The position numbers and the translations under genes are program-made. The notes under the pieces were generated by a model that had not been told where the DNA came from, did no database searches, and saw nothing but the letters and a program-made list of their open reading frames with translations. From the IMG/VR virus record IMGVR_UViG_3300020187_000025, positions 1 through 64,000 of that record: a stretch of DNA of 64,000 nt; one strand, given 5' to 3'. Origin of the DNA: a virus. Below, piece by piece: positions 7,542-40,586 of this stretch (positions are counted from its first letter, which is position 1; each line of letters starts with the position of its first letter).

Positions 7542-7790
7542 ATGCCTAAAGTAAAAGAAGATTGGTCAACAAGATCAATTACAACCCCCGAAGGAATTAA
7601 AATTACCTTTTTCAACAACAAACTTCACAATTGGAATGGTCCTGCTATAGTTTACAATGATGGCAGTAGAAGAAAATCTGAATACTATCTATATGGTATC
7701 CAAAGAACTAAAGACGATTGGTTAGAATTTAGACGAGATCGTAATGGTGTCCCTCCGGACAAGAATCCACAAGTACAATCAAGATTTTAA
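7542..7790 (+). CDS. Single-repeat MORN-like protein
   Basis: An 82-residue protein built around one copy of the pattern KLHNWNGPAIVYNDGSR..EYYLYG, the ~23-residue element that is repeated in phage and bacterial MORN-variant proteins (LHxxxGPA..x.DGS..yw.nG). Only one repeat is present, so it may be a minimal or trimmed version. The function is unknown. It leads an operon-like run with the nucleotidyltransferase one base downstream. Confidence 0.6.
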   Translation: MPKVKEDWSTRSITTPEGIKITFFNNKLHNWNGPAIVYNDGSRRKSEYYLYGIQRTKDDWLEFRRDRNGVPPDKNPQVQSRF

Positions 7791-7791
7791 T

Positions 7792-9836: not shown

Positions 9837-10125
9837 AGACTTAATTCAGTTCGATGGTTTAACTCAAGAAATGCAATCAATGCAAACCATCCTATCTGAG
9901 ACAAATCAAAAATTAATTATTCAAGGAGAATTGGTATCTAATTTAAGAATACAGGTATTAAATACCCAAAGCATGTTAGAGAAAAAAGATAACCAATTAA
10001 ATTCTCAAAAAAACGCTACTATTTCTCTACAAAAGTCATTAAAAAAAGAAAGACGAAAAACCAAATTATATAAAATCACCTCTACAATTGGAGGTGCGGC
10101 TATTCTTCTACTTTTAGTACAATAA
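9697..10125 (+). CDS. Exported coiled-coil protein with C-terminal membrane helix
   Basis: The gene begins 140 bases inside the previous gene, in a different frame. The product (142 residues) has a signal-like N-terminus (KKKLNANLILLISLVMMSWNSFSQ), a coiled-coil body and a C-terminal hydrophobic segment (ITSTIGGAAILLLLV). The signal sequence is encoded wholly within the overlap, so the overlap is functional if the start is right. A shorter start (ATG 9751) would remove the signal. No lipobox cysteine is present, so it is not a classical outer spanin. The gene ends four bases before terminase. Confidence 0.6.
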   Translation: MLSKKKLNANLILLISLVMMSWNSFSQSDTSSSTIQLIKPVAKLVIKDLIQFDGLTQEMQSMQTILSETNQKLIIQGELVSNLRIQVLNTQSMLEKKDNQLNSQKNATISLQKSLKKERRKTKLYKITSTIGGAAILLLLVQ

Positions 10126-22179: not shown

Positions 22180-23331
22180 ATGTCTCAAACCCCTATTATA
22201 TGGACGGGTGCTTCCACATTCGCAGGTGGTCAAACTCCATTTGGCTTTTATGATAGTGATACTCAATTTTCTACAGATGCTGATAAAGTAGCACAATTTT
22301 GTGCTTCACGTTTAGGATATCCTACAGTTGATGTTGAAATGGGTAGTGGTTCGTTTTATGCTTGTTTTGAAGAAGCTGTAACTACATATGGTAACGAGCT
22401 TTATTTATATCAAATACGAAATAACTTTATAAATTTAGAAGCCTCTAATACAGGTTCTGAATTAAATCAATCTGTAATTAACCCTAACTTAGGAAACGTT
22501 ATTAGATTAGCTGAAAATTATGGGTCAGAGGCAGGTTCAGGTGGTAATGTAACTTGGTATTCAGGCTCAATCCCACTAACAGCATCAGTTCAAGAATACG
22601 ATTTAAATGCTTGGAAAGATACCCAAGGTATTACAGGTTCAATTGAAGTAAAACAAGTATTTTATCAAAATACTCCTGCAATTGTTAGATATTTTGATCC
22701 TTATGCTGGTACAGGATATGGATCTCAACAATTACTTGATGTATTTGGGTTTGGAAACTATTCTCCTGCAATTAACTTTTTGTTAATGCCAATCTATTAT
22801 GATATTTCTGTAATTCAAGCAATTGAACTAAATGATCAAATTAGAAAATCAGCATTCTCATTTGAATTAGTTAATAACAAATTAAGAGTATTCCCTATCC
22901 CAAACTTACCAGGACAATTATTCATTCAGTACATTAAAGTAGATGAAAGAAATGCCCCTACATCATCTAATTTCTCAGGTGGCGATATGGTAACAGACAT
23001 TTCAAATGTTCCTTATGAAAACCCAACATATGAATATATCAATGCACCTGGTAGATATTGGGTATTTGAATATACTTTAGCATTAGCAAAAGAACTATTA
23101 GGATACATAAGAGGTAAATACTCTCAGGTACCAGTACCAGGAGCTGAAGTAACATTAAATCAAGCTGATTTAATTGCTGCTGCAAATACAGAAAAAGCAG
23201 CATTAATTGAAAAACTAAGATTAGATCTAGATGAAAACTCTAGAAAAATGCAATTACAACGTAAAGCAGAAGAAGCAGATGCAATGGGCAGAACATTAGA
23301 ACAAGTTCCCCTACCAATTTATATAGCATAA
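22180..23331 (+). CDS. gp13: Neck protein (T4 gp13-like)
   Basis: A 383-residue head-completion/neck protein. The segments QFCASRLGYPTVDVEMGSGSFYACFEEAVTTYGNELYLYQIRNN and, later, PGRYWVFEYTLALAKELLGYIRGKYSQVPVPGAEVTLNQADLI are typical of the gp13 family in T4-like phages. It plugs the portal with gp14 after packaging and accepts the tail. A one-base gap to the next gene fits the gp13-gp14 pairing. Confidence 0.85.
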   Translation: MSQTPIIWTGASTFAGGQTPFGFYDSDTQFSTDADKVAQFCASRLGYPTVDVEMGSGSFYACFEEAVTTYGNELYLYQIRNNFINLEASNTGSELNQSVINPNLGNVIRLAENYGSEAGSGGNVTWYSGSIPLTASVQEYDLNAWKDTQGITGSIEVKQVFYQNTPAIVRYFDPYAGTGYGSQQLLDVFGFGNYSPAINFLLMPIYYDISVIQAIELNDQIRKSAFSFELVNNKLRVFPIPNLPGQLFIQYIKVDERNAPTSSNFSGGDMVTDISNVPYENPTYEYINAPGRYWVFEYTLALAKELLGYIRGKYSQVPVPGAEVTLNQADLIAAANTEKAALIEKLRLDLDENSRKMQLQRKAEEADAMGRTLEQVPLPIYIA

Positions 23332-24730: not shown

Positions 24731-26860
24731 ATGAGCAACCATAGAAAAATAAGCACCCAAGGAATTGATAGTGGTAGTATTATCTACCCAGAACACGTTT
24801 TAAGAGCAATTGACGCCTTAAATGGTGATGCTGGACCTTATGATCTTGTTATATCTGGTTCATTAACTTCAACGGGTCCACAATTTATTTCTTCAGGTAG
24901 TTTAATTGAAAATAATAATGCTCCTGCCGCTTTAATGTATAACACCTCTTCAGGTGACATTTATTATAGTACAGGTAGTTTAGGTGGAGGAAGTGGTGTA
25001 GTAGGTACAAATGGTACCTCTGGAACCTCTGGAACCTCTGGTATAGATGGAACCTCTGGAACTTCTGGAAACACAGGTACATCTGGTACATCAGGTACAG
25101 ACGGAACTTCTGGAACAAGTGGTACAAACGGTACTTCTGGTACTTCTGGAGCAGATGGAAATTTATTTACAACAACTTCATCCACTTCAATATCAATTGC
25201 TACAGGAGCCCAATCCCTTAATGTAGCTACAGGATTAGCTTATATTAATGGTCATGGTATATTAATAGCATCTGCAGCAAACTCAGCTAATTTTATGCTA
25301 GGTAAAGTTACAGGATACAATTCCAATACTGGTGCTATGTCCGTATCTATACAAACCATTGGTGGTAGTGGAACTTACTCAAATTGGAATGTAAGTTTAG
25401 AATCAGCCCCTGGTACTTCTGGTACAAGCGGAACAAGCGGGACTTCAGGAACAAATGGTACTTCAGGTACAAATGGAACATCAGGTACCGATGGTAGTTC
25501 AGGTAGCTCAGGAAGTTCAGGATCAAGTGGTACATCAGGTACATCAGGTACTAGTGGTACTTACTCAGGTACTTCAAGTACATCTTTAGCAATTGGAACT
25601 GGATCTACTTCATTAACCGTAGAAACTGGTTTATCATTTGCTGCAGGACAATCAGTAATAATCCAAGAAAATGGAAATACTGCTAATTATATGATTGGTA
25701 AAGTCACCACATATAATAGCGGAACAGGTGCCTTAACAGTTAACATTACAAGTACAGGAGGAACCGGAACAATTTCATCTTGGACAATAGAATTAGGTTC
25801 AGGAGATGGTACTTCAGGTACATCTGGTTCTTCAGGAAATTCAGGAACATCCGGCACTTCAGGTACAAACGGTACTTCAGGAACAGATGGTTCATCAGGT
25901 ACTAGTGGAGAAAATGGAACTAACGGAACTAGTGGTACTTCAGGAACAAACGGAACATCTGGTACAAATGGTACAGATGGCACTTCAGGAACAAATGGTA
26001 CTTCTGGTACAGACGGGACTTCAGGAACAACACCTGAAGCACAATTTACAGGATCATATACTGGTTCATTTACAGGAGATGGTACAGGTTTAACCGGCGT
26101 GGCTTCATCCACAGGTTCTTATACAGGATCATTTACAGGTAGTATATTAGTAGACGATGCTTCTGGTTCATTTAGTGGATCATTTGAAGGAGATGGATCT
26201 AATTTAACAGGACTTGTAGCTGGTATAAGTACAATATATAACACACAAGTAAGATACGAGGCATTAAACGCTGGAAACAGTGGTGCTGATGGTAGAGTAG
26301 AAATTTTATCTACAGGTACTGTATATGGTGGTTTAACTTGGTCTAGATCAGGTACTACCCTAACTATTACAAAAACTAATCATGGTTTATCCACAGGAGA
26401 TTATATTGTAATAAGAAACATGAATTCAGATTATACTTATGTTTCTGTAACAGCAACTAATTCTAATACATTAACTTGTACTGTAGCCGATAGTGGAGGA
26501 ACATCTGGAACTGAAGGAGCGTATGTACCCGCATTTAAAGCAAGTTCATATACACAAAACGGTGTAACCATTACATCACCTAATACCGGAGATTGCCAAG
26601 TAGATTCTATTCAAATTACTACACCTACTAAAACAAACAGTAACTTTAATTTGATAATGCCTAGTTCAGTATCAAATGGTGCTGGTGGTAATAATAGTTT
26701 ATACTATCAAAACCCTCCATTAATACAAGTATGGGCTTTAAGTAATGGTAACCAAAATTCATCCGCAGTAATAACATTAAATACTTCAAGTAATTTTAAT
26801 CAATTTGAAGTAGGTGGTTTAGCATCACTTGTAAAAAGTTTAATTAGATTAACATTCTAG
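24731..26860 (+). CDS. Tail fibre with collagen-like Gly-Thr-Ser blocks
   Basis: A 709-residue fibre. The N-terminus ([24 protein letters not shown]) is paralogous to that of the fibre at 32068 and probably binds the virion. Three collagen-like Gly-X-Y blocks, mostly Gly-Thr-Ser/Asn/Asp, alternate with two copies of a ~75-residue beta-rich module ([22 protein letters not shown] and [22 protein letters not shown]). Then come [18 protein letters not shown] repeats and a C-terminal globular domain. It has no S74 chaperone. It is Ser/Thr-rich enough to be a glycosylation substrate for the enzyme at 29725 (inference). Confidence 0.85.
25004..25159 (+). repeat. Collagen-like GXY block 1
   Basis: About 17 Gly-X-Y triplets, mainly Gly-Thr-Ser, with Asn/Asp/Ile variants, encoded by degenerate 9-base DNA units. 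Confidence 0.9.
25412..25558 (+). repeat. Collagen-like GXY block 2
   Basis: About 16 triplets: Gly-Thr-Ser, then four Gly-Ser-Ser, then Gly-Thr-Ser again. Confidence 0.9.
25802..26029 (+). repeat. Collagen-like GXY block 3
   Basis: The longest block of this gene, about 25 triplets, with interspersed Gly-Thr-Asn, Gly-Thr-Asp and Gly-Glu-Asn. Confidence 0.9.
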
Positions 26861-26861
26861 A

Positions 26862-28814
26862 ATGGCATATAGAGACCAACCATTTATAGGTGCAGTTAGT
26901 GCCGATAGCATATTAAAAGAAAACTTTATAATTGCTACTGGTAATTTTGCTAGTGCTTCTAACCAAATTGCTGATTTTAGTGTTTCATCTGGTGATGAAA
27001 ATTTATTAAGAGTAGGTCAAACTATTTACTCTGTAGGAGGTGCTGTTCCTACAAGTGCTACTATTACAAACATAAATGGTAGTTTAATTACTTTAGACAC
27101 CCCATCAGTTGGAACTATTACGTCGGATACAATTGGTATATCTCTACCCTCAGGATCTTATTTATTTCAATCTGCTTCTTTTACTGATCCTAATAATGAA
27201 ATTACTGTAGGAGATATTACAGGTAGTAACACTGATCCCTCATATGATTATGCTATTTTAGGTGTAGCTAAACGAAATAATGCTACTAGAAAAGGTGTAT
27301 TTCATATCTATAAAATTTCTGAAGTAGTACAAACTAATATAGGTGGTTCTGAATTATCATTTTTTGTAGAATGGGGAGAAGAAGGAACCGAAGCTGATTC
27401 AGGAGATATTTTACAAACTTCTGAAGAAACTGTTGCAATTGTAAATTTAACCGATTCAGGTTCAATAGCACCTGGATTTTCAAGAGCAATTGCTGGTTTA
27501 GAAAATATTAAAGATGGCTCAGAATATGCTGGATTTAATGTAGCAATATCCCAATATCTATCTGATATATCAGGTTCATCAGGAGGTACTTCAGCAACAG
27601 GTTCATTTACAGGATCATTTACAGGTTCAATTTTAGGAGATGTTTTAGGTACTGCTTCTATAGCAGATTTTGCTACTACTGCTTCTTATATATCAACTGC
27701 TAGTTTTTCAGATAGTGCTACAAGTGCTTCATATGCTGAAACCTCATCTATCCAATACGATTCAGGTTCAGGTACTATTACAGGATTAGACGAGATAAAA
27801 ATTAATGATTTTGATGATAACGTAGGTGTTACATTTCAAGATAGTAAATTAACACTAACATTTGGCTCACCAACTGTACCTTCTATCTCAAGTTTTTTTA
27901 ATAGTGGGTTTGATACAAATAGATTTAATTTAGTAGAAGACGATTCTACTGTTACTGCTAACTGGAGTAATGGTGGTTATACTTTTTTAAGTGCTTCTAT
28001 CTACACAGGAAGTATAGAATTAACTCATAGTTTAGATGCTGGTGATACTAATTTAACATTAGCTTTAACTACATCAGGTTCACAAAGGTATTTCTTATAT
28101 TATACTGCTTCAAGTCCCTTAGACAATACAGAATATTACTTATCACAAACTTTAACTAGTAACTTAAGTAAAACAAACCCAACGAATCCATCAATATCAC
28201 CTACCCCAGCAGTACAATTAGGTGCTTCATCTAATCAAATAGAACAAGGGGGTACAGGTAGTATAGCATTTACAAGTGCATACGGAAGTTCAAATGGATG
28301 GGATCAAGTATCATTAGTAAATACCCCAGTTGCAACACCTTTAGAAGTAACAGGTTCAGCTACTGGTTCAAATAGTTTAAGTATTCAAGCAGTAGCAAGT
28401 TATGAATCACCCGATGGAGATAATAATCCACAATTAACTACGAATAGAACAGCAACAACTACCTATAGTAAAATACGTAGTGTAAGATATGGTGCTTCAG
28501 CAACAACAGCATTTACACAAACTCAATACGAAGATTTAGGAGCTTGGGATACAACATTAGGAGGAAATATAGGTACTATAGATAAAGGTAACACTTCCCC
28601 ATCAGGAGATAGTTTAACTATTACTTGGAGTGGAGATAAATACCATTATATAGTATATGATAGTAATAGAAGTGATTTAACTAATATTTCTACAGGAGGA
28701 TTTGGAGTAATAGGACAGTTTACTAAAACTACAGTAGGAGACTATACAGTATATAGAACTAATGACTTACAAGCAGGAGGTGGTAGTACTAGTATAACCT
28801 ATGATTTAACATAA
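26862..28814 (+). CDS. Large fibre/adhesin protein
   Basis: A 650-residue protein starting one base after the previous stop. The first ~235 residues form a beta-rich domain (YRDQPFIGAVSADSILKENF onward). [33 protein letters not shown] stretch (beta-helix-like repeat shared by the fibres here) leads to a C-terminal ~350-residue Ser/Thr/Asn-rich domain, ending in TTVGDYTVYRTNDLQAGGGS. This end may be the receptor-binding tip. I recognise no enzyme motif and no S74 end. Confidence 0.75.
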   Translation: MAYRDQPFIGAVSADSILKENFIIATGNFASASNQIADFSVSSGDENLLRVGQTIYSVGGAVPTSATITNINGSLITLDTPSVGTITSDTIGISLPSGSYLFQSASFTDPNNEITVGDITGSNTDPSYDYAILGVAKRNNATRKGVFHIYKISEVVQTNIGGSELSFFVEWGEEGTEADSGDILQTSEETVAIVNLTDSGSIAPGFSRAIAGLENIKDGSEYAGFNVAISQYLSDISGSSGGTSATGSFTGSFTGSILGDVLGTASIADFATTASYISTASFSDSATSASYAETSSIQYDSGSGTITGLDEIKINDFDDNVGVTFQDSKLTLTFGSPTVPSISSFFNSGFDTNRFNLVEDDSTVTANWSNGGYTFLSASIYTGSIELTHSLDAGDTNLTLALTTSGSQRYFLYYTASSPLDNTEYYLSQTLTSNLSKTNPTNPSISPTPAVQLGASSNQIEQGGTGSIAFTSAYGSSNGWDQVSLVNTPVATPLEVTGSATGSNSLSIQAVASYESPDGDNNPQLTTNRTATTTYSKIRSVRYGASATTAFTQTQYEDLGAWDTTLGGNIGTIDKGNTSPSGDSLTITWSGDKYHYIVYDSNRSDLTNISTGGFGVIGQFTKTTVGDYTVYRTNDLQAGGGSTSITYDLT

Positions 28815-28824
28815 TATATAGCAG

Positions 28825-29694
28825 ATGGCAATTACTTTACCTGGTGGCTTTAGGATAACGAATAACGAAGCAGTTGATTCTAGAATAAGTGTAGCTGACC
28901 AATCAGCACGTTTAGGATTTTCTGCTGCTAACGTATATGAAGGTTTACTTGTTTATCAACAAGATACAGATGAAATATACGTTTTAACTGATACTTCCGA
29001 TCCTACAGATAATGATAATTGGAAAAAGATATATCCTGTAGCATCAATGACAGGATCATTTAGTGGATCATTTACTGGTTCATTTGATGGTTTAATAGAT
29101 AGTGCTTCATTTGCTGAAACAGCATCTTACGCTATGTATGCTGTATCTGCTTCACATGAAATAGTTCACGAAACATCCTCTTCATTTGCTGAAACAGCTT
29201 CATTTGCACAAGGTGGAGATGGTGAATTTACTGGTTCCTTTACTGGTTCCTTTTCAGGTTCAAACTATTCTACAGACTTTACATTTGATGGTGATACTTT
29301 AATTGTATCAGGTAACGTGTTTGTAGATGGAACATTAGATGCTGCAACTAAAAACTTTAAAATACAACACCCTACAATGGAAGGGTATTATCTACTCCAC
29401 TCATCATTAGAAGGACCTGAACGTGGAATTTACCATAGAGGTAAATTAAGTGTCAGTAATATTATCCACTTACCAGACTATTGGAAAGAATTACCTGTAG
29501 ATGATACTGATATTACAGTACAACTTACTCCAATTGGTAATGCTTGCCATCATTGGGTTAAAAGAGTTACTAAAGAAGAAATTGAAATAGAATGTGAGTG
29601 TGGTAAACCAAGTTGTTTTTATATTGTACATGCCCAACGTTATAATGAGGGTAAATTTGAAATATTAGAACCAAAACGCAACAAAAGCTTGTAA
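28825..29694 (+). CDS. Short fibre with LHSSLEGPERGIYHRGK C-terminal domain
   Basis: A 289-residue protein. The N-terminal ~65 residues read like a phage collar/fibre N-domain (LGFSAANVYEGLLVYQQDTDEIYVLTDTS). GSFSGSFTGSFDGLIDSASFAETASYA repeats follow. The C-terminal domain (HPTMEGYYLLHSSLEGPERGIYHRGKL...LPDYWKELP...ITVQLTPIG) is a known phage structural ending. It adds a CECGKPSC cysteine cluster near residue 260 that could bind metal. It is the last gene before the glycosyltransferase. Confidence 0.75.
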   Translation: MAITLPGGFRITNNEAVDSRISVADQSARLGFSAANVYEGLLVYQQDTDEIYVLTDTSDPTDNDNWKKIYPVASMTGSFSGSFTGSFDGLIDSASFAETASYAMYAVSASHEIVHETSSSFAETASFAQGGDGEFTGSFTGSFSGSNYSTDFTFDGDTLIVSGNVFVDGTLDAATKNFKIQHPTMEGYYLLHSSLEGPERGIYHRGKLSVSNIIHLPDYWKELPVDDTDITVQLTPIGNACHHWVKRVTKEEIEIECECGKPSCFYIVHAQRYNEGKFEILEPKRNKSL

Positions 29695-29719
29695 AATGTA
29701 CTAAAGGTTATTATATTAA
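29688..29719 (+). promoter_or_regulatory. Host-like promoter CTTG-N20-TATATTAA before glycosyltransferase
   Basis: CTTG 29688-29691, 20 bases, TATATTAA 29712-29719. The 16-mer aggttattatattaaa (29705-29720) recurs exactly before the SSB gene (59470-59485). The start codon lies only 5 bases beyond the -7 box. Confidence 0.6.
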
Positions 29720-29724
29720 ATGTT

Positions 29725-32028
29725 ATGAAGGTTCAAGCTCACACGAGTTTTATAGGTACTACTGGCTACGCAAATCATGCGCAGTCATTTTTTACTGAAC
29801 TTGATAAATTAACCCCAACTAAAGTACGAAATTTTACAGTAGGTAAATCTTGGCAAGGACCTAACCATACACCTCACGATAAAGAACCCTATATTACACC
29901 TCAAATGAAGAAGATGCTTCATCTTCAAACATTATTTAATAATGATGGTTCTAGAAGCAATTTACCAATATACTCTTATAAAGACGGCTATCGTGCTGAC
30001 ATTGATATTATACTTGAAGAACACGACCACCATTACTTCTACGATGCATATGATGGTTATAAAATAGGATATAACGTTTGGGAATCAACTCGCTACTCCG
30101 AACAATTTTTTCAACAACTACTTACTTTAGATGAACTTTGGGTGCCAACTAAATGGCAAAAACAAATCTCTATAGAACAAGGATACCCAGAAGATAAAAT
30201 ATTTGTTATACCTGAAGGAGTAGACGGTAGAGTATTTAAACCTACTTCTAAACCTAAGAAAAAAGATAAATTTCAATTTGTTATAGTTGGAAGATGGGAC
30301 TATAGAAAAGGTATAAAAGAAAGCATAGAAGGTTTCCTCAAAGCATTCCCAGATAACCAAAGTGTTGAATTATTATTAAACGTTGAAAATCCATACCCTG
30401 TAGATGGTATGAACTCTACAGAAGAACGTTTAAAATATTATGGGTTAGAAGATGATAGAATAAAAATATTAAAGTTTTTAGATAGAAAACAATATATTTC
30501 ATTACTACAAAACGCTAATGTGATAATATCTTGTGCCCGTGCTGAAGGATGGAATTTACCCTTAATTGAATCTTTAGCTTGTGGTATCCCTTCAATTTAT
30601 ACTAAATGTTCAGGTCAACTCGAATTTACTAAAAGTGAAGGATTAGGAATAGATATATTAGGTGAAGAACCTGCTACAAATGGTAAAAATCTAACATATG
30701 AACACAATATACCAGGTAACTTTTATACACCTGATTTAGACCATTTAGTGGATCAAATTAGAGATTCATATGAAAATTATGCTTATTGGAAAGATTGGTA
30801 TTTGAAACGTTCTAAAGAAATACGACAAAAATTTTCTTGGAAAAATCAAGCTAAAAAAGCATACGAACGTTTACAACAAATCGATATTAAACCAAAGAAA
30901 AAATTACCTAGATTAGAGGTAAATTTTGCAGATGGTCCCTATGCCTGTTTAAGAGATGCAGAACAAGAATATTTAATAGATTTTGTAAATCAGGATACAG
31001 GTAAAAGCGAATATTCTGTTAATTTACAAAATAACCATTGGGGTAAATCATTCCACAAATTTTTTATAAATTGGGATATTCAAGTTAAAGATAAATTTGG
31101 AGAAGTAGTTACATCTCACAAATATAATGCTGCTGGTAAACGCGTTTATATTGCTTGTGGTTCAAAATCATTAGGAGATACATTAGCTTGGTTCCCTTAT
31201 GCCTTAGAATTTCAAAATAAACATAAATGTCACGTTATAGTATCTACCTTTTGGAATAAATTTTTTAAAAATAAATACCCTGAATTAACATTTGTAGAAC
31301 CAGGTGAAACTGTACCTAACATATACGCAATGTATGAGTTAGGATGGTTTTACGATGACAATAAATTAAATGGTTTTAAACAACCCTATGATCCTAAACA
31401 ATTTACTTTACAACAAACTGCAACTAATATATTAGGATTAGAATATAAAGAGGTTTTACCTAAACTAGATTATCAAGTTAAAGAACGTCCTTGGAAAGAA
31501 AAATATGTTTGTATCTCACCACACGCTTCAGCAGGTGCAAAATACTGGCAACACCCTACAGGATGGCAAGATATAATAAACCACTTAAATAGTAAAGGTT
31601 ATAAAGTAGTTCAAATATCAAAAGAAAAACACAACGATAGTTGGGAAAATAGAAAATTACCCCAAAATAAATCCTTTGAAAATATTATAGATGCAACAGG
31701 AGACCATCCTATAGAAGATATAATCAATATTATTCACCATTCAGAATTATATATAGGAGTATCAAGTGGTTTAGCTTGGTTATCGTGGGCAATACAAAAA
31801 CCCGTAGTAATGGTATCTGGATTTAGTTCAGAATGGACTGAATTTAGTACAAAAATCCAACGTATTATAAACAAAAATGTTTGTAATTCTTGTTTTAATA
31901 ACTTTAAATTAGATGCTGGGGATTGGGATTGGTGTCCAATACATAAAGATACTTCTAGACAATTCGAATGTACTAAAAAAATATTACCCGAAAGTGTAAT
32001 AGAGGGCATTACTCGCAGCCTTAGTTAA
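29725..32028 (+). CDS. Double glycosyltransferase: GT4 fused to TibC/Aah-like protein O-heptosyltransferase
   Basis: A 767-residue fusion. Residues 1-385 are a GT4-type GT-B enzyme: GTTGYANHAQSFFTEL (11-26), VIVGRWDYRKG (186-196), and E274-x7-E282 in AEGWNLPLIESLACGIPS. Residues ~398-767 match the autotransporter O-heptosyltransferase family: NFADGPYACL, SKSLGDTLAWFPYALEF (Asp485 in the catalytic region), SPHASAGAKYW, GVSSGLAWLSWA, MVSGFSSEWTEF, then Cys720, Cys723, Cys737 and Cys749 in the arrangement of the TibC iron finger. TibC adds heptose to Ser of adhesins. Lying among Ser/Thr-rich fibres, it probably glycosylates them; acting on host glycans is the alternative. Confidence 0.85.
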   Translation: MKVQAHTSFIGTTGYANHAQSFFTELDKLTPTKVRNFTVGKSWQGPNHTPHDKEPYITPQMKKMLHLQTLFNNDGSRSNLPIYSYKDGYRADIDIILEEHDHHYFYDAYDGYKIGYNVWESTRYSEQFFQQLLTLDELWVPTKWQKQISIEQGYPEDKIFVIPEGVDGRVFKPTSKPKKKDKFQFVIVGRWDYRKGIKESIEGFLKAFPDNQSVELLLNVENPYPVDGMNSTEERLKYYGLEDDRIKILKFLDRKQYISLLQNANVIISCARAEGWNLPLIESLACGIPSIYTKCSGQLEFTKSEGLGIDILGEEPATNGKNLTYEHNIPGNFYTPDLDHLVDQIRDSYENYAYWKDWYLKRSKEIRQKFSWKNQAKKAYERLQQIDIKPKKKLPRLEVNFADGPYACLRDAEQEYLIDFVNQDTGKSEYSVNLQNNHWGKSFHKFFINWDIQVKDKFGEVVTSHKYNAAGKRVYIACGSKSLGDTLAWFPYALEFQNKHKCHVIVSTFWNKFFKNKYPELTFVEPGETVPNIYAMYELGWFYDDNKLNGFKQPYDPKQFTLQQTATNILGLEYKEVLPKLDYQVKERPWKEKYVCISPHASAGAKYWQHPTGWQDIINHLNSKGYKVVQISKEKHNDSWENRKLPQNKSFENIIDATGDHPIEDIINIIHHSELYIGVSSGLAWLSWAIQKPVVMVSGFSSEWTEFSTKIQRIINKNVCNSCFNNFKLDAGDWDWCPIHKDTSRQFECTKKILPESVIEGITRSLS

Positions 32029-32035
32029 TATTTAT
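32027..32035 (+). promoter_or_regulatory. AATATTTAT box before fibre gene 32068
   Basis: Overlaps the glycosyltransferase stop; it ends 32 bases before the start codon. Confidence 0.5.
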
Positions 32036-32067
32036 TAAGGAATAATCCTAGGTAAATTCATTAATTA

Positions 32068-34176
32068 ATGGCTAATACAATAAGCACATCGGGCATTCAG
32101 AGTGGTAGCGTAATTCACGCCGAGAATGTAACTCGAATTATAGATGCTCTTTCTGGAACAGCAAACAACAATATCCAAATCTCAGGTTCTTTAGGAATTA
32201 CAGGAAGTTTTGACATTGGTAGCGGAAGTATAGCAGAAACAGGAGTAGGAGATGCTCCTCAATTACTTGCTTATAACACAGCTAGTGGAGAAATAACATT
32301 TACAAATAGACAATCAACCTCGGGTACCTCTGGTACATCTGGTACTAGTGGTACATCTGGAACATCTGGTTCTTCAGGTACTTCTGGTACATCTGGTACA
32401 TCTGGTTCATCAGGCTCTTCAGGAAGTTCAGGTACTTCAGGAACAAACGGTACAAATGGTACTTCTGGTACATCAGGTACATCTGGTACTTCAGGAACAA
32501 GTGGAGAAAAAGGAGGAGTTGAATATAATTTTGACGATTCTACTGGAGATGCCGATCCCGGAAATGGAAATATTAGATATAATACAGCTACTATAGGTAC
32601 TGTTACTTTTTTATATATAGATAATGTAGATCAAAGATCTACAGATCAAACCCAATGGTTTGCTGCTTGGGATGATTCAACTAATACTAATCCCTATGGG
32701 TATGTTACTATTACTAGTAGAGATACTGGTAATATTGTTAATATATTTGAAGTTCAAGGCACAGTAACAGCATCCTCAGGATATTATAAAATTCCTGTTA
32801 TAAATTTAACAGGTACTTTACCTTCAAATGGAGATAAATTATCGATCCAATTTTCTAGAACCGGAGATGTAGGTACTTCCGGAACCTCAGGTACCTCTGG
32901 TACTTCAGGCCCACTTTCAATAAATGGTGGAACCACAGGATCCATATTACTATTTTCAGGTAGTACAGGTACTTTAAATGCAAGTAATTTTTTAAATTAT
33001 GATGCTGATCAATTACAAATTACTTCTTCAAATTCATCATACTTAGGTTCAGTTAACATAACTGGATCTTTAGATGTATCTGGTTCAGTAATATTAAGTG
33101 GTTCATTTAGCGGTTCATTTGAAGGGTTAATTGATTCTGCTTCTAATGCTATAAATGCATTAACATCTTCTCATACTTTAGGTACAGCCTCATTTGCAAA
33201 TAACGCTACTACTGCCTCCCACACTTTTGGAACAGCTAGTATAGCAGACCGTGCTACAACAGCCTCTATAGCAGACAATATAAAATCAGGCTTAATTATT
33301 TCAGCCTCTTCGATTGCTGTATCAAATAATTTAAGTGTAGAAGGTACAGCATCATTTGGATATTTAGAAAGTATTACAGGTTCAGCTAAAATAATTGGAG
33401 ACGCCTTTATTATATTAAATAATAATACACCTGCAGAACGATACGCTGGTTTAGTAGTACAAGATTCAGGTTCAAATAACAATACAGCTTCTATACAGTT
33501 TGATGGTCAAACAAATGACTGGTTTTATGAATATACAGATGATGGAGGAGCAACAGTAGATCATGCATCAATAATGTTTGGCCCTGCATTTCCTACAAAA
33601 GGATCCCCAGTTTTCCCTGCAAGTGAATCTGTACTAGTATCAGAAGGTGGGCATCATATTACTAGCTCTGCAATGTTTATTAAGAGTGATATTGTAGATA
33701 TACAATTATCAACCAAAACCACAGGCTCAGTGTTAATATCAGGTAGTGATCATATCACTACTGGTAGTTTATCTATATCTGGAAGTTTAGGTGTTGGAAC
33801 TGAAGCATCCGGTGTAGTAGGAGCAATATTGGCAACAAACGATGTTGTAGCGTTTGCTTCTTCAGATTTAAGATTAAAATCTAACTTAAATAAAATAGAA
33901 AATCCATTAGAGAAAATAAATCAACTTTCGGGATATGAATTTGATTGGATTCCTATGGAAGGTATTCACATTCACTCAGGACACGATATTGGAGTAATAG
34001 CCCAAGAAGTAGAAAAAGTATTTCCTGAAGTCGTTGCTGATAGAGAAAATGGATATAAAGCTGTAAAATACGAAAAATTAGTATCGGTTCTAATAGAAGG
34101 AATAAAAGAATTAAAAACAGAGCTTGATCAATTAAAAACTGAACATGCTATTATAAAAGATAGATTTAATATATAA
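32068..34176 (+). CDS. Tail fibre with GXY repeats and S74 chaperone end
   Basis: A 702-residue fibre. The N-terminal [24 protein letters not shown] is paralogous to the 24731 fibre. A 65-residue Gly-Thr-Ser block (from residue 86), a globular module, a short second GXY block, [18 protein letters not shown] repeats and a globular domain follow. The C-terminus ([16 protein letters not shown] near residue 595, then [18 protein letters not shown] and [20 protein letters not shown]) is the S74 intramolecular chaperone, which trimerises the fibre and then cuts itself off near the SSD site. The stop shares TAATG with the next gene. Confidence 0.9.
32323..32517 (+). repeat. Collagen-like GXY block
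   Basis: About 21 triplets of Gly-Thr-Ser with Gly-Ser-Ser and Gly-Thr-Asn variants, ending Gly-Glu-Lys-Gly-Gly; a shorter block of four Gly-Thr-Ser lies at 32872-32910. Confidence 0.9.
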
Positions 34177-34550
34177 TGGCTAAAAATGTAAGAATAGTTC
34201 CCGCCTCCGGTTCTATTTACTTTACAGCTGATGGATATGATATAACCGGATCTGTAGTATTAAGAACATTAGGAGATACCGAAGATTTGGAATTCTCCAC
34301 TGGAGGAGACCAACCTGCATTACTTATATCTAAAGAATCAGGCAGAATTGGAGTAGGAACAGTTTCTTCATCAGCAAAATTAGAAGTTTCTTCTTCAGTA
34401 GATGAAGATCTTTTACTTATAAAAAATGCAAGTGGTAGTATTAAAGTAAACCAAGAAGGTGTACTAGTACTATCCCCCTATCAAGGAGAAGTAACCGCGG
34501 TAAGTGGTGCACTTATATATAGTGCTTCTAATCTCTTTGTAGGTGGTTAA
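34176..34550 (+). CDS. Small fibre-associated protein
   Basis: A 124-residue protein coupled to the S74 fibre (TAATG overlap). It has beta-rich, fibre-like sequence (VRIVPASGSIYFTADGYDITGSVVLRTLGD, RIGVGTVSSSAKLEVSSSVDEDLLLIKNASGSIKV), similar to head/tail fibre shaft segments with ALLIS....RIGVGT. It has no repeats or known tip domain; it could be a fibre adaptor. Confidence 0.65.
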   Translation: MAKNVRIVPASGSIYFTADGYDITGSVVLRTLGDTEDLEFSTGGDQPALLISKESGRIGVGTVSSSAKLEVSSSVDEDLLLIKNASGSIKVNQEGVLVLSPYQGEVTAVSGALIYSASNLFVGG

Positions 34551-34558
34551 ATATTTAT
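34550..34558 (+). promoter_or_regulatory. AATATTTAT box before giant fibre gene
   Basis: Overlaps the previous stop; it ends 44 bases before 34603. The leader holds a cataataaccc element also found before the 40989 fibre. Confidence 0.5.
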
Positions 34559-34602
34559 AGTAGATTAATATCATAATAACCCTTAATTAAAAACAATATA
34601 CA

Positions 34603-37600
34603 ATGGCAGAATGGAAAAAGATAGTCGTCTCTGGTAGCGACATATCCCAATTAAACAACGACAGCGGATATTTAGTTGCTGGTGGAACAATCGATTCCGC
34701 TTCAGTCGCTGATAGAGCTACCTTACTATCCCCAGATGCCACAGCATCTTTTGCTGATAGTGCTTCCTTTGCTCGAATGGCCCTCGAAGGATCTGGATCT
34801 TTCAGTGGTTCATTTGAAGGAGATGGATCAGGATTAACAGGATTAGCAACAAACTTAACAGTTGATGGTGATACCGGTACACAAGATGTAGATCTTATTA
34901 CAGATGATTTACAAATTCTTGGTACTACAAACGAAATTGAAACTGCTGTAACTAAAGTTGGTAACGATGTAAAAGTTACACTTGGTTTACCTGATAATAT
35001 TACAGTAACAGCTTCCTTTGCTGATTTAGCAGGAACTGTTCATGATGGTAATATTACAACTGCAAAACTTGCAGATGGTGCCGTAACAACAGCTAAGATT
35101 ACTGATGCTAACATTACTACCGCAAAAATTGCGGATGCTAATGTAACAGATGCCAAATTAGCCTCAGATTCAGTAACAACTGTAAAAATTGTAGATGCTA
35201 ACGTAACAGCTGCTAAATTAGCAACTGATTCTGTTGAAACTGCCAAAATTGTTGATGCAAACGTAACAACTGCAAAACTTGCAGATGACGCTGTAACAAC
35301 AGTAAAAATTACAGATGCAAATGTTACCGCAGCCAAATTAGCAACAAACTCTGTTGAAACAGCTAAGATTGTAGACGGTAATGTAACAACAGCTAAAATT
35401 GCAGATGCAAACGTAACAGATGCTAAACTAGCTTCTAACTCTGTAACAACTGATAAAATTGTAGACGCTAATGTTACTACAGGTAAATTAGCAGATAGTG
35501 CCGTTACAACAGCTAAAATCAATGATGGTGCTGTAACAAATGACAAAATTACAGATGGTACAATTGCCAACGTAAAATTAGTAAATGATAGTGTTACACT
35601 AGGTAGCACAGAAATAGATTTAGGACAAACTGTAACTGAAATTTCTGGATTAACCAGTATTTCTGCTACAACTGGTAGCTTCGTATTACAAGTATTCGAA
35701 TCCTCTTCTACAATTATTACCTCTGGTTCAAACATCTTTGGTGATAAACAAGACGATATACAACAAATTACAGGTTCATTAAAACAATCTGGTAGTTTTA
35801 CACTCTCAGGTAGTTTACTTCAATCAAACGGTGTAATTAGTGGTTCATTCCAAGGTGACGGTTCAGGATTAACTGGAGTTACTGTAGATACACTAAATAA
35901 TGCTCTTACGGATGGTAATGGTATTACAGACTTTACATTTGATGGTTCAGCTACTGCAACAGTAGCAGTAGAAGCAGATGGAGCTACTTTAACAGTAGGT
36001 GCCAATGGAGTTAAAGTTTCAGACAGTGGAATTGATACTACTCAATTAGCTGATGATGCTGTAACGACAGTTAAAATCACTGACGCAAATGTAACAACTG
36101 CAAAAATTGCAGATTCTAATGTTACTACTGCTAAAATTGCAGATTCTAATGTTACTACTGCTAAAATAGCTGATTTAAACGTAACTACAGAAAAACTCGC
36201 AGCTAATGCAGTAACTACTGCTAAAATTACAGACGCAAATGTAACAGCTGCTAAATTAGCAACCAACTCAGTAGAAACTGCAAAAATTGTAGACGCTAAC
36301 GTTACAACAGCTAAAATTGCTGATGCCAATGTTACTACAGGTAAACTTGCAGACAATGCTGTAACAACAGCTAAAATTACAGATGCAAACGTTACTGCGG
36401 CTAAACTTGCAAGCAATTCAGTTGAAACTGCAAAAATTGTAGACGCTAACGTAACAGCTGCTAAATTAGCAACGGATTCAGTTGAAACAGCTAAAATCGT
36501 AGACGGTAATGTTACCACTGCAAAACTTGCAGACGATGCTGTAACTACAATTAAGATTACAGACGCTAATGTTACTGCAGCTAAATTAGCTACAGATTCA
36601 GTTGAAACAGCAAAAATTGTTGATGCAAATGTAACAACTGCAAAAATTGCAGATAGTGCTGTAACAACAGCTAAAATCGCTGATGGTGATGTAACAAATG
36701 CTAAATTAGCTAACGATAGTGTAATATTAGGTACTACAGAAATTGATTTAGGTCAAACTGTAACAGAAATCTCAGGATTAACTAGTATTTCAGCTGTAAC
36801 AGGTAGCTTTGTATTACAGGTTTACGAATCCTCTTCTACGATTATTACTTCAGGATCAAACATCTTTGGTAATGATCAAAACGATATTCAACAAGTAACA
36901 GGATCATTAAAACAATCAGGAAGTTATACACTTTCAGGAAGCTTATTACAATCAAACGGTGTAATTAGCGGTTCATTTATTGGTGATGGTTCAGGATTAA
37001 CAGGAGTTGCTGTAGATCAATTAAATAATTCTCTTACAGACGGAAATGGTATTGCAGATTTCACATTCGATGGAAGTGGTGCTGCTACTGTAGCTGTTGA
37101 AGCAGATGGATCTACCTTAACAGTAGGTGCTAGTGGTGTAAAAGTTTCTGATGCAGGAATTGACACTACTCAATTAGCCGACAATGCTGTAACAACTGCT
37201 AAAATTACCGACTTAAATGTAACAACTGGTAAACTTGCAGACGGTGCAGTAACAACAGCAAAAATCACTGATGCTAACGTTACAACAGCTAAAATTGCTG
37301 ATGCTAACGTTACAACAGCTAAAATTGCTGATGCAAATGTAACAGTTGACAAATTAGCAACTGATTCAGTAACTACAGCTAAAATTGTAGATGCCAATGT
37401 TACAACTGCCAAAATTGCAGACGCTAACGTTACTACAGGTAAATTAGCTGATGATGCTGTAACGACAGTTAAAATCACAGATGCAAACGTAACAGCTGCT
37501 AAATTAGCAACAGATTCTGTTGAAACAGCTAAGATCGTTGATGCAAATGTTACTACTGCCAAACTCGCTGACAATGCCGTAACAACGGTTAAAATCACTG

Positions 37601-39450
37601 ATGCTAACGTAACTACCGCAAAAATTGCTGATAGTAATGTTACAACTGCAAAAATTGCAGATAGTGCAGTAACAAACGATAAAATTACAGACGGTACGAT
37701 TGCTAATGCTAAATTAGTAAACGATAGTCTTACATTTGGTGTAACAGAACAAGCACTTGGTTCAACTATAACAGAAATTAAAGGTTTAACTTTAATTAGT
37801 GCTGATACAGGTACATTTGTTCACCAAATTTTCGAATCCTCTTCTACAATTATTACTTCCGGATCAAACGTATTTGGTAATGATGCAGGAGATATTCAAC
37901 AAATTACTGGTTCATTAAAACAATCAGGTAGTATTACATTATCTGGTAGTTTATTACAATCACATGGTGTAATTAGTGGTTCATTTATTGGAGATGGTTC
38001 AGGATTAACTGGATTAGCTACAATATTAACCATTGATGGTGATTCAGGAGGTACCTCAACAGTAGATTTACAAACACAAAATCTAGATATTGCTGGTACA
38101 GCAAACGAAATTGAAACTTCAGTTTCAGGTCAAACTATTACTATTGGTTTACCTACTAATATTACAGTAACAGCTTCATATGCTGATACAGCAAGTATTG
38201 CTAGAACTGCAGATTCAGCTTCAAACTCAACAAATGCTATTTCAGCCTCAGCTACAGTAGCGGGTCAATTATTCCCAACAACAGAGGGATTAAATGGTCA
38301 AGCTCTTGTAACAGATGGTGCTGGTCAATTAATATATGCTGATGCATTCGGAACTGGTTCAACTAAGAAATTAAACCAAACCGTAGCAGCAGAAACTTGG
38401 TCGTTTGTTCACAATTTAGATGAAGAATATCCTATAGTACAAATTTGGGATACTACTGGAGATATGATTCTCCCAGACAGAATTGTAACTATAAATGCCA
38501 ATACTGTTGAAATTATATTCCCTGTGCCTGTTGCCGGTATCGCCGCTGCAATGGTAGGTGGAATGGGAATTTCAGCTTCTGAAGCAATACATGCTAGTAC
38601 AGCCTCAGTTGCTGATCGTGCTACAGAATTAAGCGTAGATGCAACAGCTTCATTTGCTGATGTAGCAGGAACAGTTCACGCTGGTAATATTACTACTACT
38701 GAATTAGCTGATAATGCAGTAACAAATGCTAAAATTACAGATGGTACAATTGCCAACGTAAAATTAGTAAATGATAGTGTTATTCTTGGTACAACAGAAG
38801 TAGATTTAGGTGCCACTTCAACCACTTTAGTAGGATTAACTAACGTAGAAAGTACTATGTTCAGTGGTTCCTTCAAAGGTGATGGTTCCTTATTAACTGG
38901 ATTAGTAACAGAATTAGATATTGCTGGTGATACAGGTACAGATGCTTTAGATCTTAAAGTTGATACATTAAATGTAGTCGGTACTACTGGTGAAATTGAA
39001 ACCGCTGTAACAAATAATCAAATTCAAATTGGATTACCTAGTAACGTAACAGTTGGAAACGACTTAACTGTAACAGGTGATGCAACTATTGCTGGAGATT
39101 TAGTAGTAGGTGGTGCTATAGTAAGTGCTTCTTCGTTGGAAGTTGCAGATCAATTTATTATATTAGCATCCGGTTCAAATGGTGCGATTGATGGTGGTAT
39201 CATTATTAATCAAGTCGATGATGATCCAGATGGTAGAGGTAAAGCATTTGCTTACGATTCTAGTGCAAACAGATGGGCATTACAATCAGAATTGGTTGAT
39301 TCTGCCACAACAATTACACCAGATGCGTATATGGGTGTTATTCAAGAAAGTGCAGGTGCTCCAAGTTCCGATCCAACATATGGTGGAACAAATGGTAAAG
39401 GTACGATTTTTGTAGATACCTCAAATAACGAAGCTTATATTTACATATAA
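34603..39450 (+). CDS. Giant fibre protein with decapeptide repeats (1615 aa)
   Basis: The largest gene in the window. The N-terminus MAEWKKIVVSGSDISQLNN matches that of the 39780 protein. Three large blocks of a 10-residue repeat (consensus DANVTTAKIA) alternate with a ~95-residue module (DLGQTVTEISGLTSISA...SGSLLQSNGVISGSF.GDGSGLTG) present three times, and a GD.GT..VDL...NEIET......IGLP module also present three times. Near residue 1260-1320 is WSFVHNLDEEYPIVQIWDTTGD...ILPDRI, a domain shared with 40611. The repeats suggest a long beta-solenoid trimer. No S74 end is present. Confidence 0.85.
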   Translation: MAEWKKIVVSGSDISQLNNDSGYLVAGGTIDSASVADRATLLSPDATASFADSASFARMALEGSGSFSGSFEGDGSGLTGLATNLTVDGDTGTQDVDLITDDLQILGTTNEIETAVTKVGNDVKVTLGLPDNITVTASFADLAGTVHDGNITTAKLADGAVTTAKITDANITTAKIADANVTDAKLASDSVTTVKIVDANVTAAKLATDSVETAKIVDANVTTAKLADDAVTTVKITDANVTAAKLATNSVETAKIVDGNVTTAKIADANVTDAKLASNSVTTDKIVDANVTTGKLADSAVTTAKINDGAVTNDKITDGTIANVKLVNDSVTLGSTEIDLGQTVTEISGLTSISATTGSFVLQVFESSSTIITSGSNIFGDKQDDIQQITGSLKQSGSFTLSGSLLQSNGVISGSFQGDGSGLTGVTVDTLNNALTDGNGITDFTFDGSATATVAVEADGATLTVGANGVKVSDSGIDTTQLADDAVTTVKITDANVTTAKIADSNVTTAKIADSNVTTAKIADLNVTTEKLAANAVTTAKITDANVTAAKLATNSVETAKIVDANVTTAKIADANVTTGKLADNAVTTAKITDANVTAAKLASNSVETAKIVDANVTAAKLATDSVETAKIVDGNVTTAKLADDAVTTIKITDANVTAAKLATDSVETAKIVDANVTTAKIADSAVTTAKIADGDVTNAKLANDSVILGTTEIDLGQTVTEISGLTSISAVTGSFVLQVYESSSTIITSGSNIFGNDQNDIQQVTGSLKQSGSYTLSGSLLQSNGVISGSFIGDGSGLTGVAVDQLNNSLTDGNGIADFTFDGSGAATVAVEADGSTLTVGASGVKVSDAGIDTTQLADNAVTTAKITDLNVTTGKLADGAVTTAKITDANVTTAKIADANVTTAKIADANVTVDKLATDSVTTAKIVDANVTTAKIADANVTTGKLADDAVTTVKITDANVTAAKLATDSVETAKIVDANVTTAKLADNAVTTVKITDANVTTAKIADSNVTTAKIADSAVTNDKITDGTIANAKLVNDSLTFGVTEQALGSTITEIKGLTLISADTGTFVHQIFESSSTIITSGSNVFGNDAGDIQQITGSLKQSGSITLSGSLLQSHGVISGSFIGDGSGLTGLATILTIDGDSGGTSTVDLQTQNLDIAGTANEIETSVSGQTITIGLPTNITVTASYADTASIARTADSASNSTNAISASATVAGQLFPTTEGLNGQALVTDGAGQLIYADAFGTGSTKKLNQTVAAETWSFVHNLDEEYPIVQIWDTTGDMILPDRIVTINANTVEIIFPVPVAGIAAAMVGGMGISASEAIHASTASVADRATELSVDATASFADVAGTVHAGNITTTELADNAVTNAKITDGTIANVKLVNDSVILGTTEVDLGATSTTLVGLTNVESTMFSGSFKGDGSLLTGLVTELDIAGDTGTDALDLKVDTLNVVGTTGEIETAVTNNQIQIGLPSNVTVGNDLTVTGDATIAGDLVVGGAIVSASSLEVADQFIILASGSNGAIDGGIIINQVDDDPDGRGKAFAYDSSANRWALQSELVDSATTITPDAYMGVIQESAGAPSSDPTYGGTNGKGTIFVDTSNNEAYIYI
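35050..35602 (+). repeat. Decapeptide repeat block A (30-base units)
   Basis: About 18 copies of a 10-residue unit (DANVTTAKIA-like), approximate limits. DNA copies differ mostly at third positions. Confidence 0.85.
36052..36720 (+). repeat. Decapeptide repeat block B
   Basis: About 22 copies of the same 10-residue unit, including a perfect-looking local duplication of gattctaatgttactactgc at 36112-36165. Confidence 0.85.
37180..37728 (+). repeat. Decapeptide repeat block C
   Basis: About 18 copies; a short fourth stretch of about three copies lies at 38686-38780. Confidence 0.85.
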
Positions 39451-39456
39451 TAGACA

Positions 39457-39696
39457 ATGTTTAAAAAAGTTATGGGATTATTAGATAAAATCAGAGAAAA
39501 GGAAGCTGCCCAGGAGGCGGCTTCCTCTGTCTCTAAAAAAGAAAAAAAGACTTCTAAAGAAGATTTATCATTAAATGCTGAAGAAACAAAAATTCTTTTA
39601 CATTTAATTAAAAATTCAAATTTTAAAGGAGAAAGTGTAGAATTAGTATACAATCTTACTTTAAAACTCCAAAAAGTTCTAAATATTTTAGGTTAA
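39457..39696 (+). CDS. Small charged helical protein
   Basis: A 79-residue protein six bases after the giant fibre stop. The N-terminal half is Lys/Glu/Ala-rich (MFKKVMGLLDKIREKEAAQEAASS) and the C-terminal half a likely helical hairpin (LNAEETKILLHLIKNSNFKGESVELVYNLTLKLQKVL). I remember similar short C-terminal modules in marine phage genomes but no function. The position suggests a fibre assembly helper (inference). Confidence 0.6.
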   Translation: MFKKVMGLLDKIREKEAAQEAASSVSKKEKKTSKEDLSLNAEETKILLHLIKNSNFKGESVELVYNLTLKLQKVLNILG

Positions 39697-39702
39697 ATAA
39701 TA

Positions 39703-39711
39703 TATATTTAT
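39703..39711 (+). promoter_or_regulatory. TATATTTAT box before 39780
   Basis: It ends 68 bases before the start codon. The leader contains a cccgaaaggg GNRA-type mini hairpin at about 39728-39737. Confidence 0.4.
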
Positions 39712-39779
39712 ACTAGAGCATTATTGGCCCGAAAGGGAAGTGGGCATCCTATGATGTAACCAACCGTAATAGAGTATAT

Positions 39780-40586
39780 ATGCCAAACTGGAAAAAAATA
39801 GTCGTTGGAGATTCCAACGCATCCTTAGCGTCACTTAATATAAGTGGTAATTTAACTGCATCCGCAGCATACCTAGAATCTGCCTCAATTGGTCATTTAC
39901 AGACCATATACGAGACAGCTTCCGTTATTTATAGTTCAGGCTCAACCAAATTTGGTGATACATCCGATGATACTCATGAATACACCGGTTCTCTTTCAAT
40001 ATCAGGTTCAATATCAATTGTTGAAGGAGCCCAATTAACAGGTACTTCAAGTTTTGCTATAACAGCATCGCATGCCCTAAACGTACCTGACACGGCTTCC
40101 CACGCTTTAACAGCGGTAACAGCCTCACACACATCAGGTACTGCCTCATTCGCAAATAACGCTACTACATCGTCTTATACGCTAACTGGTGACGGGGTGT
40201 TTAGTGGTTCATTTAGTGGATCATTTCAAGGAAATGCAGCCGAACTAAATGTAATCCCCTTCCCGTTCACTGGTTCAGGTGAAATGCAAGGTGATTTAAC
40301 AGTTCACTCTTTACAAGATTATACTGACGAAGATTACGTAGAAAGTTATTTCGCAGGTACCGCAATATACTCAGATGGAGATATAGCATTAACAGGTAGT
40401 ATTTTTAGTGCTTATATTAATGCAAATACCTTTACAGGATCATTCTTAAATGATACAGGATATGTTGTGTTAACACAAGTATCTCAAAGTTTAAACTTTA
40501 CTGACGATTCTGCTGCACAAGCTGGTGGGGTGCCGTTAGGAGGATTGTATAGAAACGGAAATACCATACAAATTAGAATAAGTTAA
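39780..40586 (+). CDS. Fibre protein with VPLGGLYRNGN end
   Basis: A 268-residue protein. Its N-terminus (MPNWKKIVVGDSNASLASLN) is paralogous to the giant fibre's. The middle has [22 protein letters not shown] beta-helix-like repeats and [17 protein letters not shown]. The C-terminal DDSAAQAGGVPLGGLYRNGNTIQIRIS is a motif that I recall at the end of several phage tail proteins. It is probably a short fibre. Confidence 0.7.
   Translation: MPNWKKIVVGDSNASLASLNISGNLTASAAYLESASIGHLQTIYETASVIYSSGSTKFGDTSDDTHEYTGSLSISGSISIVEGAQLTGTSSFAITASHALNVPDTASHALTAVTASHTSGTASFANNATTSSYTLTGDGVFSGSFSGSFQGNAAELNVIPFPFTGSGEMQGDLTVHSLQDYTDEDYVESYFAGTAIYSDGDIALTGSIFSAYINANTFTGSFLNDTGYVVLTQVSQSLNFTDDSAAQAGGVPLGGLYRNGNTIQIRIS

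Follow-up and report, generated by a model that had tools for sequence, protein, structure and literature searches.

A fused glycosyltransferase among fibre genes

The window, by which we mean the whole 64,000-nucleotide stretch of viral DNA that was analysed (positions 1 to 64,000 of IMG/VR record IMGVR_UViG_3300020187_000025), carries at 29725-32028 on the + strand an ATG-started open reading frame (ORF) of 767 residues, in which two glycosyltransferases are fused. The reverse complement of this ORF, read in one register, is full of stops. Judging from sequence, the fusion probably O-glycosylates collagen-like Gly-Thr-Ser (GTS) tracts in the phage's own fibres. Loci that have or lack the enzyme, compared as controls, together with a random-contig control and the GTS neighbours of bacterial relatives, point to a cassette, composed of a GT4-type and a TibC-type enzyme, that is tied to GTS fibres.

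The N-terminal half (residues 1-395, 29725-30909, + strand) is a GT4-type glycosyltransferase, matched above the cut-off by PF00534 (E 1.4e-12) and by phrog_2170 (2.3e-38). Its E-x7-E motif is formed by E274 (30544-30546) and E282 (30568-30570), neither of which varies among 21 aligned fusions. A first-pass annotation of this DNA had described a 767-residue protein with an intact GT4 E-x7-E motif at its N-terminus, and the coordinates, the PF00534 match and the two glutamates agree with it. The C-terminal half (residues 396-767, 30910-32025, + strand) had been assigned to the TibC/Aah family, and a hidden Markov model (HMM) search with residues 398-767 had been suggested as a check. The NCBIfam model TIGR04414 (autotransporter O-heptosyltransferase, hepto_Aah_TibC) matches residues 401-763 with 319.6 bits, the cut-off being 200, and the motifs LGDTLAWFPY, GVSSGLAWLSWA and SGFSSEWTEF as well as Cys720/723/737/749 are all found in the protein as written. 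TibC entries of the PDB match residues 421-762 (4rb4, E 5.9e-55; 4rap, 1e-54). The relation to lipopolysaccharide (LPS) heptosyltransferases is distant, with 45.8 bits for PF01075 on this half.

An AlphaFold2 model of the fusion, built on the 21-fusion alignment, had a mean predicted local distance difference test score (pLDDT) of 83.2 and a predicted template modelling score (pTM) of only 0.54, so that it does not fix the mutual arrangement of the two halves. The comparison with the TibC structure, also suggested beforehand, gave a clear match: model residues 394-767 align with chain 4rb4_B over 359 residues (Z 34.8, root mean square deviation 3.4, 31% identity), covering its span 21-388 and with it the N-terminal beta-barrel. 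A Foldseek search of the model likewise returned the TibC fold for the C-terminal half. The window protein was not reported by the Pfam barrel model PF21129 at E 0.1. Model residues ~1-390 match GT-B/GT4 folds, best 3oy2 (Z 32.6, residues 1-388). One related copy of the fusion (L005:6848-9160) is split into two ORFs of 487 and 234 residues, by a sequencing error or because the gene is broken.

Two GTS-repeat fibres with collagen-like Gly-X-Y tracts, the proposed acceptors, flank the enzyme gene on the same strand. The upstream one, of 709 residues (24731-26860; PF01391 3e-22; tail fibre PHROGs), contains 126 Ser, 120 Thr and 61 Gly-X-Y triplets, the latter in three tracts at residues 89-145 (24995-25165), 228-278 (25412-25564) and 360-434 (25808-26032); it is the nearest GTS fibre on that side, being the third gene up, 2865 bases from the enzyme gene. 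The downstream one, of 702 residues (32068-34176; PF13884 5.1e-17, PF01391 2.2e-8; tail PHROGs), begins 39 bases past the enzyme gene and ends in an S74 chaperone C-terminus. It has 108 Ser, 80 Thr and 27 triplets in two tracts, at residues 86-148 (32323-32511) and 266-283 (32863-32916).

Two + strand genes lie between the upstream fibre and the enzyme. The first (26862-28814, 650 residues, 28% Ser+Thr) gave no family match and has no Gly-X-Y tract, and its place suggests a structural or fibre-like protein. The second (28825-29694, 289 residues; phrog_17490 4.1e-29, unknown function) encodes a fibre-like protein with TGSF/ASFA motifs; it is directly upstream of the enzyme gene, with a 30-base gap, and is TGSF-like but free of GTS repeats. 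The first-pass placement of the enzyme among Ser/Thr-rich repeat fibres thus holds for the GTS fibres on both sides, but the adjoining upstream gene has no GTS repeat, and the eight proteins counted have few TGSF-like motifs (0-11 each). TGSFSGSF repeats as acceptor are not supported, the association seen being with GTS tracts. Further downstream on the + strand are a 1615-residue tail fibre with pentapeptide/decapeptide-like repeats and no Gly-X-Y tract (34603-39450; phrog_28766 tail fibre 5.5e-199) and a tail sheath gene (45548-47284; phrog_23 1.7e-78), the latter indicating that the window belongs to a contractile-tailed phage.

The enzyme and its neighbours in phages and bacteria

One scan of metagenomic phage contigs gave at least 587 stretches matching the TibC-type enzyme. 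Among isolate phages, 131 records had any match to the fusion, and 4 of the 60 records listed align in the TibC half; window DNA 26000-40000 had no megablast match in isolate phages. FkbM and other methyltransferase domains are sometimes fused or adjacent to the enzyme. A quick tree was built from 108 TibC-type domains with the column of TibC residue 286 removed; in it, the phage forms and some forms from genome contigs (63 rows together) split with full support in the Shimodaira-Hasegawa-like approximate likelihood ratio test (SH-aLRT) from TibC and 44 other bacterial forms. The window enzyme groups with four other fused phage forms. Two of the genome-contig members on the phage side (L041, L056) carry a sheath gene, and some of these members are probably phage contigs in metagenome-assembled genomes (MAGs). 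Sequence comparison makes it likely that the window enzyme is no isolated case: it belongs to a clade of TibC-type enzymes that is widespread in phages and whose likely acceptor is new.

In the GTS tracts, which are Gly-X-Y repeats, X is mainly Thr or Ser (with ~2% Pro) and Y mainly Ser. Identical sequences were merged before loci were counted. A GTS ORF was present in 23 of the 25 unique phage loci having at least 5 kb on both sides, and in 40 of 91 unique phage loci overall, most of them cut-short contigs. Controls were then started from genes other than the enzyme. Starting from the sheath, 33 unique loci remained once 6 duplicates and the 41 of 80 with less than 4 kb upstream had been set aside: 11 had enzyme and GTS, 8 the enzyme only, none GTS only, and 14 neither (Fisher p 5e-4, with no tree correction). 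Seven of the 8 enzyme-only loci have less than 7.5 kb upstream. Starting from the adaptor (window gene 22180-23328), 27 unique loci with at least 5 kb downstream were sorted into 10 with both, none with the enzyme only, 1 with GTS only and 16 with neither. The lone GTS-only locus, L323, shares its contig with enzyme locus L153, the enzyme lying just past the stretch end. The ten positives are close relatives and hence represent few events; three further adaptor loci (L316, L318, L319), uncounted for having less than 5 kb downstream, show GTS without enzyme in a short stretch.

Starting from GTS repeats, the first 50 loci on contigs of at least 15 kb, out of 80 listed, were compared with the 41 such contigs among 80 random ones listed. 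TIGR04414 matched 18 of the 50 (17 over cut-off) and none of the 41 random contigs, which were shorter on average; in 120 random fragments neither a GTS ORF nor the enzyme was found. The survey of related phages that the first-pass annotation had called for does reveal co-occurrence of enzyme and GTS-repeat fibres, in the full-flank loci as in the sheath- and adaptor-first controls. Low proline content was considered as a mark of enzyme-linked tracts and rejected, enzyme-free GTS contigs being equally proline-poor. The AIDA-type acceptor repeat TIGR04415 was found in none of 15 phage records (the E. coli control was positive), so that the acceptor would be of a new kind if it is indeed the GTS tract.

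A GT4 accompanies the enzyme, fused (15) or at most 5 kb away (28), in each of the 43 unique phage loci that extend 4 kb or more upstream, including one (L160) where it consists merely of two short ORF pieces. Two GT4 types, GT4a and GT4b, serve as partners. Among 78 unique stand-alone forms on genome contigs, such a GT4 was within 5 kb in one, the phage-like L041; since the neighbours were sought with two profiles made from phage GT4s, other GT4 types may be missed. In five loci (L129, at 8998-9945; L140, L153, L173, L185) the large GT4 gene is separated from the stand-alone TibC-type gene by a gene for a second GT4-like protein, of 315 residues (MKICQV...). Locus L131 combines the TibC-type enzyme and a GT4 with proline-rich Gly-X-Y tracts in place of GTS. 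In Microcystis phage Mel-JY01 (PP395634; L001:1-3052), a + strand GTS ORF runs off the record start, and minus-strand coding sequences are annotated over most of it; the record annotates the enzyme merely as methyltransferase FkbM. This enzyme is a 1226-residue protein that combines GT4 and TibC-type parts, and the GTS ORF is 1.7 kb from it.

On the phage side of the tree there are 16 loci from genome contigs, and 8 of them have an ORF with GTS/GTA/GSS repeats no more than 2 kb away. These 8 include every one of the 7 stand-alone copies taken by eye to be chromosomal, from a Polaromonas MAG, two Methylobacter genomes and four gammaproteobacterial MAGs; in these 7 the ORF is within 176 bases and looks exported. 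None of the other 64 genome-contig loci, which are not on the phage side, has a GTS ORF within 2 kb. As a prediction test, 311 genomes around Methylobacter were searched; 17 places exceeded the cut-off, in two score groups that were separated after the scores had been seen, and the 14 loci considered here were placed in clades by score, not by tree. Seven new loci (L588-L594) scored 303-327 bits: the strict GTS motif is present within 154 bases in five of them, L592 has a looser GTS repeat by eye, and the stretch of L590 contains a Ser-rich ORF. The seven autotransporter-type loci at 653-663 bits (L581-L587) have no GTS ORF within their short flanks of ~0.1-1.5 kb on each side; by eye, two or more of their neighbours look AIDA-like.

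Small GTS/GTA/GSS ORFs adjoin the stand-alone enzyme at L043, L045, L046, L050, L051, L052, L053, L588, L589 and L591-L594, in Methylobacter and other proteobacteria; their N-termini resemble signal sequences, in some cases with what looks by eye like a lipobox Cys. It is possible that the small GTS ORF and the stand-alone enzyme are the cellular counterpart of the phage pair. This pairing in bacteria is the strongest single argument for the GTS tract as acceptor.

Active site and donor sugar

Residues of the window enzyme were mapped from its alignment with TibC, with roles taken from passages of PMC4358343. TibC D110 corresponds to D485 (31177-31179), K230 to K606 (31540-31542), W305 to W685 (31777-31779) and T226 to S602, and the iron-finger cysteines C339/342/358/370 to C720/723/737/749. 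At the position of R286 the window has Ile666 (31720-31722). In TibC, Arg286 contacts the adenine N1 of ADP-heptose, and an Ala variant loses all or most activity (PMC4358343, same passages). With the catalytic residues kept and R286 replaced by Ile, we take the window enzyme to be probably functional, with an uncertain nucleotide donor.

Unique TibC-type domains, 90 from phages and 87 from genome contigs, were surveyed: every one has D110 and W305, and K230 is present in 88/90 and 87/87, respectively. The four iron-finger cysteines are present in 90/90 phage domains and nearly universal over the whole set. Arg at 286 is found in 54 of the 90 phage domains versus 79 of the 87 from genome contigs. 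The TibC dodecamer requires a beta-hairpin thumb with the hydrophobic tip F265/V266; in phage domains, position 265 is D, N, S or a gap and position 266 is mostly polar or a gap, the alignment of this loop being uncertain. A residue other than Arg at 286 occurs in 29 of 30 GT4-fused phage forms versus 3 of 52 stand-alone ones. GT4 fusion as the cause of the Arg286 loss was nevertheless not upheld: on the tree each of the two changes about 6 times, with only 4 supported pairs, which does not show the link to be independent of descent, and two strain-named Methylobacter copies (L045, L046), stand-alone and yet non-Arg, speak against it.

Heptose, named as the sugar by the first-pass annotation, is not favoured by these data, given Ile666 and the lack of any SIS_2/GmhA-type match in 14 phage records. 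HldE domain II was above the cut-off in one of 14 phage records and below it in four more, the two sets of 14 overlapping only in part; a heptose pathway general to the phages did not emerge. The positive record is the L343 contig, which has a GTS fibre and a TibC-type enzyme; its HldE domain II, encoded at L568:1438-1926 and of the ADP-heptose synthase type, scores above the curated threshold. The sub-cut-off match in G001, a near-identical relative of 166 kb, is a protein also encoded in the window at 7744-8211. This protein is cytidylyltransferase-like (PF01467 8.9e-12) and is followed by an AAA_28 ATPase (8218-8748); the two possibly belong to nucleotide-sugar or NAD metabolism.

Proposed mechanism, alternatives and known systems

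We propose that the fused protein is a two-step protein glycosyltransferase, which would be expressed together with the fibre genes and act in the cell on newly made fibre chains prior to virion release. A first sugar would be set on Ser, perhaps Thr, of the GTS tracts by one half, which the analogy with TibC suggests to be the C-terminal half. TibC itself glycosylates Ser and not Thr (PMC4358343, in the passages used). The other half would extend this sugar or add a second one, the order of the steps being conjectural. On the virion, the sugars might shield the fibre, stabilise its nearly proline-free Gly-X-Y tract or tune receptor binding. Of the self-contained fibre glycosylation cassette of the first-pass annotation, the GT4/TibC-type pair survives, tied by comparison to GTS fibres, whereas heptose and a TGSF acceptor are unsupported.

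Several observations weigh against this proposal. The adenine-contacting Arg is Ile666 in the window. Two loci with full flanks (L131, L190) have the enzyme and no GTS ORF, as does L255 with 10 kb upstream, and 8 of the 16 phage-side genome-contig loci have none within 2 kb. Tree-corrected sign tests, which lack power, rest on 4-7 independent pairs (median p 0.25), with no pair in the opposite direction. Conversely, TIGR04414 goes unmatched in 32 of the 50 GTS-pattern contigs, 26 of which do show long tracts, and the enzyme is present in 8 of 99 short fragments with a real GTS ORF, the length of the fragments being a caveat. GTS fibres can thus exist without the enzyme, with the same caveat. 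That another GT4 serves the enzyme-free contigs was not borne out (GT4 in 3/32 versus 4/41 random contigs).

The main rival is that these enzymes remodel a surface polysaccharide of the host (LPS O-chain or capsule) during infection, for instance to block co-infection. Glycosyltransferases in the same island of pelagimyophages, the fibre island, are read as host O-chain modifiers in the relevant part of PMC7029224, and the distant PF01075 relation and the occasional methyltransferases would fit such a role. We nevertheless regard it as unlikely: the best family is an iron-finger protein O-glycosyltransferase, the NCBIfam LPS heptosyltransferase models scoring at most 40.9 bits on the fusion against the 319.6 of TIGR04414, the enzyme tracks GTS fibres in two controls, and its bacterial relatives are paired with GTS proteins. 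Less probable still is that the acceptor is another virion protein (capsid, tail tube or the TGSF/ASFA-repeat proteins) and the GTS fibres mere neighbours. Capsid and tail-tube glycans of mycobacteriophages are cited in a portion of PMC12619734, and TGSF/ASFA motifs do occur in genes adjoining the enzyme. GTS tracts, however, recur beside the enzyme in settings as unlike as the Microcystis phage, opposite-strand arrangements and bacterial contigs, and Flavobacterium phage immuto, the nearest isolate by sheath (55.4% identical), has TGSF motifs with neither a Gly-X-Y tract in the ten genes tested nor an enzyme match. Finally, a moron of the fibre island that is inactive on phage proteins is very improbable: phage glycosyltransferases can modify DNA (PMC12619734, in part) and loss of the adenine-reading Arg could betray a decayed enzyme, but the catalytic residues are kept across loci at 37-90% identity, the setting is one of fibre genes, and no DNA-glycosyltransferase family is among the family matches of the window protein.

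If GTS fibres are glycosylated, many environmental phages with contractile tails would depend for their adsorption, their host range and the stability of their fibres on a sugar coat, of which we found no discussion in the open-access literature searched. TibC-type enzymes are common in metagenomic phage contigs and few among the isolate records listed, with a partner protein that differs from the autotransporter. Carriers include an isolate, Mel-JY01, and strain-named Methylobacter genomes, which makes the idea directly testable, and the enzyme may offer a compact tool for repeat glycosylation. More speculatively, and with a good deal of doubt, there might be a previously unrecognised O-glycosylation system for proline-poor Gly-Thr-Ser tracts in phages and bacteria, in which a clade of TibC-type enzymes took GTS tracts rather than autotransporters as acceptor, acquired a GT4 partner in phages and, in its fused forms, left ADP-heptose; sugars would then replace proline or hydroxyproline in stabilising fibres and give sugar-coated host-recognition fibres.

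Simple Ser repeats, namely the SD repeats of staphylococcal proteins, are glycosylated by the GT4-like enzymes SdgA and SdgB; the phage enzymes match this family weakly (E 7.5e-4) and in the relative L023 only. Hydroxyl residues of Gly-X-Y tracts can bear O-glycans in collagen-like proteins such as BclA, with which, to our knowledge, no TibC-type enzyme is associated; unlike these, the phage GTS tracts are nearly proline-free. Virion glycosylation of mycobacteriophages has reportedly been described by Freeman et al. 2023. That system resembles the proposed one in that glycans are reported on virion proteins, and differs in its capsid and tail-tube targets, the portion of the PMC12619734 account that cites it naming neither a TibC-type enzyme nor a GTS fibre. 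Among the matches listed, no open-access title or abstract links phage fibres or GTS repeats to an enzyme of the TibC type, and the open-access papers naming both TibC and phage have titles on bacterial genomes, virulence and effectors. The closest known system is TibC/Aah itself (bacterial autotransporter heptosyltransferase, BAHT; TIGR04414; 4rap, 4rb4), known from bacterial autotransporter adhesins (PMC4358343, in part). The window enzyme departs from it by its separate clade, Ile for Arg286, an apparently unconserved hydrophobic thumb tip, the GT4 fusion, and a GTS fibre as neighbour where TibC has an autotransporter, the TIGR04415 target repeat being unmatched. Both share the HMM, the fold of the C-terminal half, the catalytic Asp, Lys and Trp, the four iron-ligand cysteines and, as neighbour gene, a Ser-rich repeat protein.

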